From: Anaerolineae bacterium
GTDB lineage: Bacteria > Chloroflexota > Anaerolineae > Promineifilales > Promineifilaceae
Assembly (NCBI GenBank): GCA_023954475.1
Contig: JAMLHW010000004.1
Coordinates: 248,001 to 312,000, forward strand
Direction: 5' to 3'
DNA: 64,000 nt
Shown: piece after piece, positions 511 to 35,836 of the stretch
Layout: every line of letters begins with the position of its first letter
Numbering within the stretch: the first letter of the stretch is position 1
Notes under the pieces: generated by a model
The model's input: only the letters and a program-made list of their open reading frames with translations
Database searches by the model: none
What the model was told of the DNA's origin: nothing
Position numbers and translations under genes: made by a program

Positions 511-1155
511 TCAGGTTTCGTTGCCAACTGCTGCAACGATATCTTGCGCCGCATCGATCTCGTCCTGAATGATCGTGTGGCCCATGCCCGGATAAATGCG
601 TTCGGTGACGTTTGCCCCCATGCGCGTCAGCGTGGCGGTCGTTTCGTGGACGCGCTCGACGGGAATGTGGAAATCGACGTCGCTACAGCCGATGAAAACC
701 GGCATGCCGGTCAGTGATCCGGTGTAATCGCGTGGCGTACCCGGTAGCCCAATCAGACCACCGCTGAAGACGAGCAGACCACCGTAACGTCGCGGATGAC
801 GTGCGACGTACTCCGCACTGAGACAGGCTCCCTGCGAAAAACCGCCGATGATGATGTTTTCGGCCGAAATGCCCGCCTCCTCCACCTGTTCAACCAGATC
901 AGCTATCGCCTGAATCCCCGACGAAATTCCCGGCTCGTTATTGGCCATCGGCGCGAGAAAACTATACGGATACCACGTATTGTTTGCGGCTTGTGGCGCC
1001 AGATACGCCATTGCGGGATGCGGCAGCGCCCGCGCCAAATCGAGGATACTGGTTGCTGTCGCCCCGCGTCCGTGTACCAGAATCATCACCGCATCAGCAG
1101 CATCGAGCGGCTTGCCTGCTGCAAACACAGACTGATTTTGATGTGGTCCGCTCAT
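511..1155 (-). CDS. Alpha/beta hydrolase, carboxylesterase/phospholipase family (MhqD-like)
   Basis: This 214-residue cytoplasmic serine hydrolase has a nucleophile elbow GFSQG at 105-109 (Ser107), a likely acidic residue at Asp159 or Asp161 (GCSDVDFHIP) and the catalytic His193 (GMGHTI). An HGRG oxyanion-hole segment lies near 29-32. The size and motifs match the carboxylesterase/phospholipase family that includes Bacillus subtilis MhqD. Its ATG overlaps the stop of the upstream dioxygenase by 4 nt, so the two are translationally coupled in one operon behind a MarR regulator. That context suggests a role in quinone or aromatic electrophile detoxification. The actual substrate cannot be read from sequence. 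Confidence 0.85.
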   Translation of the reverse strand: MSGPHQNQSVFAAGKPLDAADAVMILVHGRGATATSILDLARALPHPAMAYLAPQAANNTWYPYSFLAPMANNEPGISSGIQAIADLVEQVEEAGISAENIIIGGFSQGACLSAEYVARHPRRYGGLLVFSGGLIGLPGTPRDYTGSLTGMPVFIGCSDVDFHIPVERVHETTATLTRMGANVTERIYPGMGHTIIQDEIDAAQDIVAAVGNET

Positions 1156-2108
1156 GATTGTGCCGCCAATGCCGGATGATTAAACTTTGGCACAGCGTTC
1201 TCAATCGTCTCGCGGTGCTGCTCCAGCCACGGCGGCAGGCGCAGCGTCGTTCCCAACGTTTCAACCGGCTCATCATAGAGAAAACCGGGCGCATCAGTTG
1301 CGATTTCAAACAACACACCGTTCGGCTCGCGAAAGTAGATCGAGTGGAAATATTGCCGGTCCTTGACATCGGTGACGTGATAGCCGGCAAGGCGTAGTTG
1401 GCTCTGATACTCAGCTTGCTCGGTGTCATCGACGGTGCGGAAGGCAATGTGATGGACGGATCCGGCACCCTGGCTACCACGCGGCTGGCCGGGGCGTTCG
1501 AGTAGATCGATGTAGACACCAATGTCGTTGGATGCGCCTTTGTAACGATAGCGATTGCCTTCCTGCCCGACAAAGGTGTAGTTGAATTGGCCGAGTAGAA
1601 TAGCGGCGGTGTGTTCGGCCGAATCGACCCAGAGCGTGGCGCTGTGAAAGCCGCGAAGTTCGTGTTCAGCAGGAATAGGGCTGCCACGCCACGGCTGAAT
1701 CGTTGCCGGTTCGTCGCTGACAATCAGTTCCAACGCCATGCCGTCAGGATCACGGAACGGGATCACTTCCTGCCCAAAGCGCATATGTCTTGTACCAATC
1801 GTCACGCCGTTTTCAGTCAGTCGGTGGCGCCAGTAATCGGCCGAATTCGGCCGAATGGTGTATCCTGTCGCCGCCACTTCGCCGTTGCCCGGCGTGCCGC
1901 GGCGTGCGTGCGGCCACGGAAAAAACGTCATAACTGTGCCCGGCGTGCCGATTTCATCGGCAAAGTAGAAATGATACGTGCCGGGATCGTCGAAGTTGAT
2001 CGTCGTTTTGACCATGCGCTGGCCGAGCAGCGTATGGTAGAAATCGACGTTGCGCTGCGGATCGCTGGCGAATGCAGTGATATGGTGGATGCCTTGTATT
2101 GGTTGCAT
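1152..2108 (-). CDS. Ring-cleaving dioxygenase, two VOC domains (MhqO-like)
   Basis: The protein has 318 residues and two glyoxalase/bleomycin-resistance (VOC) modules, about 5-130 and 150-275. The first opens with GIHHIT (His8/His9) and the second with SVHHIAFR; a late FEIATD supplies the usual glutamate metal ligand. The overall pattern (HHITAFASDPQRNVDFY, then TVMTFFPWPHARRG) matches the ring-cleaving dioxygenase family that contains MhqO/MhqA of the 2-methylhydroquinone regulon. It lies 15 nt after the MarR gene and overlaps the hydrolase gene downstream. Function as an Fe(II)-dependent hydroquinone dioxygenase is inferred from the family and context. Confidence 0.85.
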   Translation of the reverse strand: MQPIQGIHHITAFASDPQRNVDFYHTLLGQRMVKTTINFDDPGTYHFYFADEIGTPGTVMTFFPWPHARRGTPGNGEVAATGYTIRPNSADYWRHRLTENGVTIGTRHMRFGQEVIPFRDPDGMALELIVSDEPATIQPWRGSPIPAEHELRGFHSATLWVDSAEHTAAILLGQFNYTFVGQEGNRYRYKGASNDIGVYIDLLERPGQPRGSQGAGSVHHIAFRTVDDTEQAEYQSQLRLAGYHVTDVKDRQYFHSIYFREPNGVLFEIATDAPGFLYDEPVETLGTTLRLPPWLEQHRETIENAVPKFNHPALAAQS

Positions 2109-2123
2109 GATACTCTCCAGATG

Positions 2124-2588
2124 TTAATTGATTAGCTGATCATTGTCTTGGCGTCCCAATCTGCGCAGCAAATCGCCGAGTTGACGCTGCTCATCGGCCG
2201 AAAGGACGCTCATTTCGTCTGTTACTTTGGCCACGTGGCCAGGGAAAATGGCAGCAATCAGGTCGTGCCCAGCTTCAGTGAGTTGCACATTGATACAGCG
2301 CCGGTCATTCAGATCGCGTTCACGGGTGACGAGACCGTGTTTGCTCAAGTTGTCGATGACGAGCGTCATATTGCCGCCACTCTTGAGAATTTTGCTGCCG
2401 AGTTGGTTTTGGTGCATCGGTCCAAGGTGGTAGAGCGCCTCCAGTACACCAAATTGACTGATGGTCAAATTGTGGTCGCCAAGATGGCGATTGATGCGTT
2501 CCGAGACGGCCGCCGCTGCCCGTTCGAGCTTAATGTAGACATCAAGGGCATTTTGTTCTGTTTGTGTGCCGCTGTAATGGGTCGCCAT
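2124..2588 (-). CDS. MarR-family transcriptional regulator (MhqR-like)
   Basis: This 154-residue winged-helix regulator has a dimerisation helix at about 12-38, a helix-turn-helix at about 59-88 (GPMHQNQLGSKILKSGGNMT) and a wing containing the family-typical DRR (94-97). The only cysteine is Cys98 in the wing, so a classic N-terminal thiol sensor is absent. It is the first gene of a three-gene operon with a dioxygenase and a hydrolase, the arrangement seen in MhqR-type quinone-stress loci. It probably represses its own operon, since a short inverted repeat lies just upstream. Confidence 0.9.
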   Translation of the reverse strand: MATHYSGTQTEQNALDVYIKLERAAAAVSERINRHLGDHNLTISQFGVLEALYHLGPMHQNQLGSKILKSGGNMTLVIDNLSKHGLVTRERDLNDRRCINVQLTEAGHDLIAAIFPGHVAKVTDEMSVLSADEQRQLGDLLRRLGRQDNDQLIN

Positions 2589-2593
2589 AGCAA

Positions 2594-2608
2594 TTAATTC
2601 GATATTAA
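2594..2608. promoter_or_regulatory. Candidate MarR operator (inverted repeat)
   Basis: TTAAT-TCGAT-ATTAA is a 5-5-5 inverted repeat starting 6 bp upstream of the MarR start codon. The position suits autorepression and the AT-rich dyad is typical of MarR sites. Only one copy was found, so the assignment is inferred. Confidence 0.4.
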
Positions 2609-2861
2609 ACTATTTGATGTTGAAATAATACCGATTTACATGGCTGTCGTCAATGATTTCGGCCGATTCTTACGCGTCATTGATAGATCATCATCCCCAA
2701 AAACCTTGACATGGCATATTTACCAACGTCACTTGCTGAGAACTCGACCGACTTTCCATCCGGATATGCCGCTTGTTCTGTTGCGGCACGCCGCATGCTA
2801 TCCAATCTGTGTTATCAACAATTCCATCGCGATTCCATTCCCCAGACCGTGTCTTCCCCTG

Positions 2862-2867
2862 TATAAT
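2862..2867 (+). promoter_or_regulatory. TATAAT -10 box upstream of icmF
   Basis: A perfect TATAAT lies 50 bp before the icmF start in a 329-bp divergent spacer. No convincing -35 box is seen at the usual distance. A consensus GGAG ribosome site (2905-2908) precedes the ATG. The rest of the spacer holds the MarR operator candidate and one copy of the iterated palindrome near 2660. Confidence 0.45.
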
Positions 2868-2917
2868 TCAATTAACACAATCTACGAAAACAGCGTCCAA
2901 ATCTGGAGACAGGCACC

Positions 2918-5900
2918 ATGGCACTGGCCGTACCAACCCAAGCCCCCTACAAACCAACCAACAAAATCCGCATCGTCACCGCCGGATCCCTCTTCGACGG
3001 CCACGACGCCGCGATCAACATCATGCGCCGCATTCTGCAAGCATCCGGCGCTGAAGTGATCCACCTCGGCCACAACCGCTCCGTCGACGAAATCGTCAAC
3101 TGTGCCATTCAGGAAGACGCACAGGCCATCGCCATCACCTCCTATCAAGGTGGCCACCTCGAATTCTTCAAATATATGGTCGATCTGCTTGTTGAAAAAG
3201 GATGTAGCCACATCAAGGTGTTCGGCGGTGGTGGCGGGACGATTCTGCCTGACGAAATCGACGAACTGCACGCATACGGTGTCGCCCGCATTTACTCGCC
3301 TGACGATGGCCGCGCAATGGGCTTGCAGGGCATGATCGACGATTTGCTGCAACAAGCCGACTTTCCCACGGGCAAGCTGGATGCTGACCGCTGGCTTGAG
3401 GCAATTGAAGCGGCGTACGGTTCGGCCGAATCGAGCCCCAACGGCCGATTAGCAGTCAAACACGAAATCAAGGAACGGATCGAAGCACGGGCAATCGGCC
3501 GACTCATTTCCGCCGTCGAAAACGAACCCGACCTCGTCGAACCGATCATGGAAGAACTACATCGCCGCATGGAAGGGCTGAAACTACCGCCCGTTCTGGG
3601 TATAACCGGCACAGGTGGTGCAGGCAAATCTTCGCTCGTCGACGAATTGGTACGTCGTTTCCTGATGGATTTCGACGACAAACACATCGCTATCGTCAGC
3701 GTCGATCCCAGCAAGCGCAAAACCGGCGGTGCTCTGCTCGGCGACCGCATCCGCATGAACGCCGTCAACCACCGACGCGTCTACATGCGTTCCGTCGCCA
3801 CGCGCCAATCCAACCTCGCGCTGTCCAAACACATGACCGAGGTGATGAATATCCTCAAAGCGGCCCAATTCGATCTGATCATTCTCGAAACCTCCGGTAT
3901 CGGCCAATCCGACACCGAAATCGTCGATTTTTCCGACGTGTCGCTCTACGTGATGACGCCGGAATACGGCGCGGCAACCCAGCTCGAAAAGATCGACATG
4001 CTCGACTACGCCGACATCATCGCCATCAACAAATTCGACAAACGCGGCGCACAAGATGCCCTGCGCGATGTCAAAAAGCAGTTCCAGCGCAATCATCGAC
4101 TATGGGATACGCCGAATGACCAACTGCCGGTTTTCGGCACGATTGCGTCGCAATTCAACGATCCCGGCACAAACAAGCTATATCGCGTCCTGATGCAAAC
4201 CATCGCTGAGCGGACAGGTGCCAATCTGCGCACATCGCTCAATCTCGAAGAAGGTGATTCGGAGAAAATTTACATCATCCCGCCACGGCGCGTGCGCTAT
4301 CTCTCTGAAATCGCCGAGACGATCCGCACATACGACCGCTGGACTGATGAACAGGCTACCATCGCCAACCGTCTCCAGCATTTGAGCGGCGCCGCCGAAG
4401 AACTCCGTAGCGCAGGTTTCCAACCTGCCGAACTCGACAATCTCCACGATCAACTCAGTCTCCAACTGGACAAGGCCAACCAACTCATTCTGGAAACGTG
4501 GGCAGAGAAAGTCGCCCGCTACAAAGTCGACGAATTCGTCTATCAGGTGCGTGGGCGCGACATCCGCGTACCGACCAAATTTGAAACGCTCTCGCGCAAC
4601 CGCATTGCGCGTGTCGCTATGCCGCGCTACACGGCCTGGGGCGACATCCTCAAGTGGAGCTTGCAGGAAAACGTACCCGGCGAATTCCCCTACACCGCCG
4701 GTGTCTTTCCGTTTAAGCGGCAAGGCGAAGACCCGACGCGCATGTTCGCCGGTGAAGGCGGTCCCGAGCGCACCAATAAACGCTTCCACTACGTCTCGCT
4801 CGGCATGCCCGCCAAACGGCTCTCAACCGCATTCGATTCGGTGACACTCTACGGCGAAGACCCGGCGTACCGGCCCGACATCTACGGCAAAATCGGCAAC
4901 TCCGGCGTCTCCATTCCCAGCCTCGACGACGCCAAGAAGCTTTACAGCGGCTTCGACTTGTGCAATCCGAAGACATCGGTGAGCATGACCATCAACGGCC
5001 CGGCAGCGACCGTGCTCGCGTTCTTCCTCAACGCCGCAATTGATCAACAATGTGAACGATTTATCCGCGAAAACGGCCTGGAACATCGGGTTGAAGCCAA
5101 ACTGGTTGAGGTTTACGACAATCGTGGCCTGGAGCGGCCCCGTTACAACGGCGAATTGCCCGAAGGCAACGACGGCCTCGGCCTGATGCTGCTCGGTTTG
5201 ACCGGCGATCAGGTACTCGATGCCGCGACGTATGGCGCAATCAAAGCGCGGACGTTATCGCAGGTGCGCGGCACCGTGCAGGCCGATATCCTCAAGGAAG
5301 ATCAGGCGCAAAACACATGCATATTCTCGACGGAATTCTCCTTGCGCTTGCAAGGTGATGTGCAGCAATATTTCATCGATCACACCGTGCGCAACTTCTA
5401 CTCGGTGTCGATTTCCGGCTATCACATCGCTGAAGCCGGGGCGAACCCGATATCGCAGCTCGCGTTTACGTTGGCGAACGGCTTCACGTTCCTCGAGTAT
5501 TATCTGGAACGGGATATGGATATCGATGCGTTTGCGCCGAATTTCTCGTTCTTTTTCTCGAACGGGATGGATCCGGAGTATGCGGTTATCGGCCGAGTTG
5601 CACGCCGCATTTGGGCCAAAGCACTCAAAAACAAATACAAAGCCGGCGAACGGGCGCAAAAGCTCAAATACCACATCCAGACATCGGGACGGTCACTGCA
5701 CGCGCAGGAAATCCAGTTCAACGACATCCGCACGACATTGCAGGCGCTGATGGCGATTTACGACAACGCCAATTCGCTGCACACCAACGCCTACGACGAA
5801 GCGATCACGACGCCGACCGAAGAATCGGTGCGACGTGCGATTGCAATCCAGATGATCATCAACCACGAACTCGGTCTGGCGCAAAACGAGAATTCACTGC

Positions 5901-33692: not shown

Positions 33693-33909
33693 GCCAATTT
33701 GACCAGTTTGACCGACACATTTGGCAAAACACTTCGACTGTATTGTGTGTTCGGCCAAAAACAATTCGCATCTGGATTGTAAAACTAACCTGCGAAACCT
33801 TTACCGCGGCGCTTACCCGGCACTCATGCCACATGGTTTGAATTGATGAGTTATGGACAGACCCAAAAGCCATCGGTAAACTATTGTGGATGAATTCTGC
33901 TTACACCTT

Positions 33910-34010
33910 CTTTGTACACTGTAACGGGAGTTTTCAGAAGCCTAGCTTTTGCTATGAGTAGCGTTTGCACCAGACGAAAAGCCAGGCTTCTTTTGTTACA
34001 GAGTACTTTG
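33910..34010. mobile_element. MITE-like element, 91 bp with terminal inverted repeats and target duplication
   Basis: TACACTGTAAC (33915-33925) and GTTACAGAGTA (33995-34005) are 11-bp terminal inverted repeats with one mismatch. They are flanked on both outer sides by the direct repeat CTTTG (33910-33914 and 34006-34010), as expected for a 5-bp target-site duplication. Inside, GAAGCCTAGCTTTT pairs with AAAAGCCAGGCTTC, so the transcript folds into a long hairpin. It codes for nothing. It lies in the spacer between uvrC and the delta-60 protein gene. No parent transposase is in this window. A structured RNA or terminator is the alternative. Confidence 0.55.
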
Positions 34011-34123: not shown

Positions 34124-35836
34124 ATGCATACAGAAGTCAACAGCCAACACAAGTTACCAATTTGGAGTATTGTCATCGGGTTACTGCTCATGCTTGGCAT
34201 AACCACCACGCTCGTTTTTGCGGTAGCAGACGGCAATCTGGACCCCACTTTTGACGGTGATGGTATTGCCGTGACTGAAGTGAGCGGCCTCGACAATGAG
34301 GCGCACGCCATTGCGACACAGCAAGACCTCAAAACAGTGGTCGTCGGACTTGTAACAAACGGCGACGGCACAACCGATTTATTGCTGATACGGTACAGAG
34401 AAAACGGCACGCTGGATACGACGTTCGGCAGTGGCGGCAAGGTCATCAGTACGCTCATGGACGCAGGAAACGGCATCGCGATCCGCCAGGACGGCAAAAT
34501 CGTCGTAGCAGGCTATAAACAAGTCGGCGCAAATACCCAGTTTGCCGTTGCCCGCTTCAATTCAAACGGATCGCCAGACACAAGTTTTGGCACCAACGGT
34601 GTCACTTTAACGCCGGTTGGAAGCGGCGATGCGGTTGCACATGGCATTTATTTGCAACTGGATGAACAGATCGTCGTTGCCGGCTCAAGCGAGAATGCGT
34701 CACAAGACATGGCTATCATACGCTATTCGGCCGATGGCGTACTTGACAGCACATTTGGCACAGGCGGTATCGTCCAGGTCGATTTCCCGCTCGGGCTCGC
34801 CGATGTCGCCAACGGTGTCGTCGTACAACTGGACGGCAAAATCGTCGCGGCCGGCGCAACTAGAACTGACCGGCCACGTCAAGACGAAGACTTTGCTCTG
34901 GTGCGCCTGAATACAAACGGATCGTTGGATACCAGTTTCGGCAGCGCGGGGACAGGATTAGTGCAGACGCCTATTTCCAAACCCAATCCTACGGACAATC
35001 GCAATGACGGTGCTTTTGCTGTTACGATTCAATCCGACGGCAAAATTGTGGCTGCCGGCTATTCTGAAATCAATCAATGGACGGTCATGGTAGCTGTTGT
35101 GCGCTATTTGGAAAACGGGACATTGGATACAGAAGATTACGGTGGCTTTGCCAATCAGGCTAATGGCTATGTTCAGTACAATACCGGTGACAACAGATCG
35201 ATTGCACGCGGCGTCTCCATCCAAACAGACGGTAAAAGTGTCGTTTTCACAACGGCCGAAGCCAGCACCAGTGCCAGCATCAACGTCGGATTCATCGTTA
35301 TGCGTCTGGAATTGAACGGGATGTTTGATTTCGGTTTCAAAAATGGTTATCTTGTGGTTGATTTGCCTGATGCGGAGAGAGAATCTGCTTATGGCGTCGC
35401 GCTGCAACGCGACGGCAAAATTGTCGTCACCGGACTTTCCGAGTTTAGCGGTGAAACACGTACAACGACAATGCGTGTCATTTCCGGTGCTCCCCTCATG
35501 GCTGTCGATCCCAGTATCCTCAACTATGTCATATTGCCCAACGACAACCGCATTCAGTCCAAGTCATTCAGCATCAGTGGCTATAATGAGACCAGCTCAG
35601 CAGATGAACTGCGCTGGTCAGTCGTCTCAACGGAGGAATGGCTGACAATCAACGAGGCAAACGGTGTCGGTGACGTCACACTACAGGCAACAGTTGATGC
35701 GACCGGTATGGAAAACGGCATTTACTCGGCCAAGATCGTTGTATTTGCCGGCAGCGCCACACGACAGGAAGTTGAAGTCATTCTCGAAATTGCGGATGAA
35801 GCACTGACCTATGCTCCGTTAGTGTTGAGCAATTAG
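34124..35836 (+). CDS. Secreted delta-60-repeat protein
   Basis: The ATG follows AAAGGAG. The 570-residue protein has an N-terminal export helix (about 13-35). About seven delta-60 repeats follow, each with LDxxFGxxG and a following DGKIVVAG-type strand (for example GTLDTTFGSGGKV, GSPDTSFGTNG, GVLDSTFGTGG). The repeats probably form a beta-propeller. A C-terminal Ig- or BACON-like domain (LRWSVVSTEEWLTINEANGVGDVTLQATVD) completes it. There is no sortase motif or membrane anchor at the end, so it is probably secreted or loosely surface-bound. A good terminator follows. Ligand unknown. Confidence 0.87.
   Translation: MHTEVNSQHKLPIWSIVIGLLLMLGITTTLVFAVADGNLDPTFDGDGIAVTEVSGLDNEAHAIATQQDLKTVVVGLVTNGDGTTDLLLIRYRENGTLDTTFGSGGKVISTLMDAGNGIAIRQDGKIVVAGYKQVGANTQFAVARFNSNGSPDTSFGTNGVTLTPVGSGDAVAHGIYLQLDEQIVVAGSSENASQDMAIIRYSADGVLDSTFGTGGIVQVDFPLGLADVANGVVVQLDGKIVAAGATRTDRPRQDEDFALVRLNTNGSLDTSFGSAGTGLVQTPISKPNPTDNRNDGAFAVTIQSDGKIVAAGYSEINQWTVMVAVVRYLENGTLDTEDYGGFANQANGYVQYNTGDNRSIARGVSIQTDGKSVVFTTAEASTSASINVGFIVMRLELNGMFDFGFKNGYLVVDLPDAERESAYGVALQRDGKIVVTGLSEFSGETRTTTMRVISGAPLMAVDPSILNYVILPNDNRIQSKSFSISGYNETSSADELRWSVVSTEEWLTINEANGVGDVTLQATVDATGMENGIYSAKIVVFAGSATRQEVEVILEIADEALTYAPLVLSN

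Follow-up and report, generated by a model that had tools for sequence, protein, structure and literature searches.

A 5-bp target duplication in a MITE family of an Anaerolineae bacterium and in a clade of IS630-type elements with similar ends

Introduction

Among the systems closest to the element described here, Methanosarcina mazei carries an 89-bp MITE that is paired with the IS630-type element ISMma9 (PMC3852290). ISY100 and IS630 insert into TA and duplicate only that dinucleotide, and the same account treats bacterial and eukaryotic members of IS630/Tc1/mariner as mechanistically alike, with “no fundamental differences” (PMC2170065). The eukaryotic Fot and Fot-like pogo transposons generate TAA or TAAA duplications (PMC7386202). 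A 5-bp duplication in IS630-type elements was not reported in the open-access literature searched. Here, we analyse a MITE found in a 64,000-nucleotide stretch of an Anaerolineae genome (the window), together with its copies and the IS630-type elements that share its ends.

Results

The element occupies positions 33915 to 34005 of the window (91 bp), with CTTTG directly outside both ends, exactly where the earlier note had placed a MITE with terminal inverted repeats and a CTTTG duplication. It is short, has no coding capacity, and comprises the following features:

33910-33914, + strand: target duplication, left copy CTTTG (sequence; exact 5-bp duplications at 15/27 two-ended family copies)
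33915-34005, + strand: MITE, 91 bp (family consensus 92 bp; 34 dispersed copies in its own genome)
33915-33925, + strand: left terminal inverted repeat TACACTGTAAC (sequence; the 11-mer TACWCTGTAAC also ends three IS630-type elements)
33936-33950, + strand: inner hairpin, left arm AGAAGCCTAGCTTTT (folding; family consensus)
33977-33991, - strand: inner hairpin, right arm AGAAGCCTGGCTTTT (family consensus)
33995-34005, - strand: right terminal inverted repeat, GTTACAGAGTA on the + strand and TACTCTGTAAC on the - strand (sequence)
34006-34010, + strand: target duplication, right copy CTTTG (sequence)

The 11-bp ends differ from each other by a single mismatch, and relative to the 92-bp consensus, the window copy lacks one A from an A5 run. 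The long interior hairpin that had been proposed is also borne out: the arm at 33936-33950 meets a near complement at 33977-33991, forming a second inverted repeat inside the first, and the element folds as single-stranded DNA at -19.9 kcal/mol, versus -10.8 +/- 2.6 for shuffles (z = -3.5). A default-seed repeat search of the region missed these inverted repeats. The MITE lies in the spacer between a divergent uvrC (Pfam UvrC domains) and the DUF5122 beta-propeller (“delta-60”) gene, upstream of which it had been described; the start of the latter, at 34124, is 118 bp past the element. The suggestion that the insertion may add regulation fared less well. A consensus scan found neither a terminator nor a promoter inside the MITE, and the single promoter-like site, at 33854-33882, is upstream of the element and at chance level; hence, a regulatory role on the neighbouring gene has no support.

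A search of the element's own genome (5.12 Mb, 26 contigs, 98% complete) recovered 34 distinct copies, with identities of up to 98% and E values down to 1e-38, and thus the hairpin in the window is not a chance structure. The copies lie in both orientations, with unrelated flanks, almost all between ORFs; 27 of the 34 retain both ends, and the mean distance from the consensus is 4.7%. None of 58 related genomes, a set without members of the same genus, contained a copy. Likewise, a search of ten genomes carrying related IS630-type elements for MITEs with TACNCYGTAA ends around a 50-80 bp interior gave none, indicating that relatives do not generally carry MITEs like these.

This distribution bears on the possibility that the hairpin is a structured RNA gene or an intrinsic terminator held at a conserved place, which the earlier note would have favoured had there been a single copy with a conserved position in relatives. 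The hairpin is indeed strong and well kept among copies. However, such an RNA does not fit a sequence present 34 times, between unrelated flanks and with target duplications, and in none of the 58 relatives. Moreover, Rfam yielded no family above threshold (the best match, E 4.5, is at chance level), a scan of the element found no terminator, and the target duplications, along with the interruption of a gene described below, refute this explanation, which we regard as highly improbable. As to compensatory change in the hairpin, only one pair has changes in both partners, with A-T, G-C, A-C and G-T all represented, and this is not enough to infer selection on the hairpin structure.

Target duplications were not peculiar to the window copy. 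Exact 5-bp direct repeats flank 15 of the 27 two-ended copies, versus 1.1 expected from random pairings of left with right flanks, and allowing one mismatch raises the number to 19 (4.9 expected); duplications of 6-9 bp were found at none of the 27. The duplicated sequence follows a symmetric N-T-N-A-N consensus, with T at position 2 in 15/15 and A at position 4 in 14/15. These duplications also speak against a palindrome of the REP/REPIN type that a RAYT transposase had dispersed, a description that would suit a short, hairpin-forming element found mostly between genes. REPINs are not known to produce a target duplication, whereas here there are clear 5-bp duplications and ends that match those of an IS630-type element, leaving this origin with a negligible probability.

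The earlier note had also called for empty sites, and one could be inferred. The copy at L023:1503-1594 (contig C12, about 416246-416337) splits an ORF, and a 440-codon frame is restored by deleting the 92-bp element together with just one of its 5-bp repeats, while deleting 0, 3, 4, 6 or 7 flanking bases instead does not restore it. In the related genome G021, a homologue (41% identity) is uninterrupted at the insertion site. The same locus helps to decide whether the true duplication might be the TA inside each end (TA/CACTG...CAGAG/TA), as in canonical IS630, with the outer 5-bp repeats reflecting mere target preference. Nearly every element starts with TA and ends with TA, as that scheme would have it. 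Nevertheless, the outer 5-mers vary between copies yet agree on the two sides of a given copy far more often than chance would allow, and the empty C12 site would retain seven extra bases (TA plus the second CTAAA) and be frameshifted, whereas removing the element and one 5-bp repeat keeps the frame open. We therefore consider a TA duplication very unlikely, and treat the 5-bp repeats as the target duplication in what follows.

Several copies have unusual arrangements. The copy at L044:1484-1578 (contig C20:518833-518923) has an inner core that runs opposite to its ends, as though recombination had flipped the stretch lying between the two hairpin arms. At L008:1502-1689 (contig C8:33927-34114), two MITEs lie head to tail with a common 5-bp repeat between them (flanks ACTAG, CTTAG and CTAG), and on contig C2, a MITE directly abuts the right end of an IS630-type element (L054). 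The C8 tandem and the C2 pair read as insertions beside an earlier duplication.

The exact 11-mer TACWCTGTAAC occurs at 46 sites in the genome, versus 7 for a reversed control pattern. Only 5 of the 46 lie outside MITEs, and four of these five are the ends of three IS630-type elements of about 1.25 kb, which have the same terminal inverted repeat (TACTCTGTAAC) and an IS630-type DDE_3 transposase. The autonomous element with matching ends that the earlier note had recommended looking for is thus represented by three copies, all of them decayed:

L056:2940-4185: IS630-type element, 1246 bp, with its own 5-bp duplication CTCAG; damaged
L055, 4090 to about 5337: IS630-type element with TACWCTGTAAC end(s) and transposase; damaged
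L054 (contig C2), about 1025 to 3519: IS630-type element split by another insertion; damaged

The insertion that splits the last of these is about 1.2 kb and contains transposase-like fragments. The transposase matches Pfam DDE_3 (PF13358) at 1e-20, and the C-terminal ORF of one decayed copy matches NCBIfam transpos_IS630 (NF033545) at 4.4e-29 (101.9 bits, against a cut-off of 100); no intact transposase was seen in the assembly. From its shared terminal repeats, this element is likely the parent of the MITE. Beyond about 15 bp at the ends, the two have little similarity, and the MITE is therefore not a simple internal deletion of the three parent copies. The parent has the DDE_3 transposase of the IS630 family but not the family's 2-bp TA duplication, with the 5-bp N-T-N-A-N pattern instead seen in the MITE and in relatives of the element.

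These relatives, at 48-66% identity, come from Chloroflexota, Latescibacterota, Bacteroidota, Acidobacteriota and Cyanobacteriota, mostly measure 1.19-1.23 kb, and have TAC(A/T)C(C/T)GTAA-like (TACWCYGTAA-like) ends and a two-ORF layout. The closest relatives of the transposase in the Anaerolineae genome, together with gene content, point to Chloroflexota as the phylum of the host. With element boundaries fixed by the inverted repeats and not by the duplication, 31 of 54 have exact 5-bp duplications (2.3 expected) and none has a longer one; T is at position 2 in 30/31 and A at position 4 in 31/31, again giving N-T-N-A-N. Without the Latescibacterial copies, exact 5-bp duplications remain at 11 of 30 (1.4 expected; 0 of 5000 shuffles), and a further four are 4 bp long (0.65 expected). 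In a tree, the 5-bp group forms one side of a branch (support 100/99) against distant IS630 controls, and the element from the Anaerolineae genome falls inside it, although the bootstrap of the tree did not settle fully and this decayed query sits on a long branch. Most of the controls (mostly 34-40% identity) lacked clear ends; those that had them (G085 copies and L155) can be read as TA within CTAG or TAGTACTA, targets whose palindromic flanks make the duplication length ambiguous. An A7-A8 run, about 455-490 bp into the element, was present in 10 of 11 relatives examined (L148, L149 and L085 among them), near the two-ORF junction in most, and in all three copies of the Anaerolineae genome; it fits a predicted -1 frameshift site of the clade's transposases.

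Discussion

We consider it highly probable that the window element is a non-autonomous MITE that spread by cut-and-paste, moved in trans by the transposase of an IS630-type element whose terminal repeats it shares. At the level of sequence, this reading draws on the copies, their ends and duplications, the unrelated flanks, the one restored frame, and a same-ended transposase element in the same genome. The transposase would bind the TACWCTGTAAC ends, excise the MITE, and insert it at nicks in the target DNA that are 5 bp apart (sometimes 4) and centred on T-N-A; repair of the gaps would then leave the 5-bp N-T-N-A-N duplication. We infer that the enzyme was the IS630-type transposase of this genome, or a close relative now lost, and that it worked by cut-and-paste. 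The family is probably immobile now, given that all three parent copies are broken and that MITE copies lie about 5% from the consensus on average.

The MITE alone is ordinary, a new sequence family of a known sort; what is less ordinary is the 5-bp IS630-type clade behind it. Duplication of TA is the supposed hallmark of IS630/Tc1/mariner, and a clade in at least five phyla makes 5 bp. We consider it likely that the IS630-type DDE_3 transposases of a broad bacterial clade have moved from a 2-bp strand-transfer stagger at TA to one of 5 bp (sometimes 4) around T-N-A, that the former TA has become part of the element ends, and that this clade feeds MITE families, including that of the window. 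Provisionally, as judged against the open-access literature searched, the clade is a new IS630 variant. Boundary calls based on TA will misplace element ends in it, and its members lend themselves to comparison when asking what determines the target stagger of the superfamily.

Set against the M. mazei MITE and ISMma9 (PMC3852290), the window MITE is similar in its length of about 90 bp, its inverted-repeat ends and its IS630-family partner, but it differs in being a new sequence, with 34 host-restricted copies and 5-bp N-T-N-A-N duplications instead of TA. Like ISY100 and IS630 (PMC2170065), the clade has a DDE domain with conserved D, D and E, an N-terminal helix-turn-helix and short inverted repeats; unlike them, it makes duplications of 5 bp (occasionally 4) in which position 2 is T and position 4 is A, and its ORF is broken in two at a conserved A7-A8 run. 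Finally, as with the Fot and Fot-like elements (PMC7386202), the clade is another IS630-Tc1-mariner branch that departs from TA, but where those elements are eukaryotic and duplicate 3 or 4 bp beginning with TA, the clade described here is bacterial and duplicates 5 bp in a symmetric N-T-N-A-N pattern.
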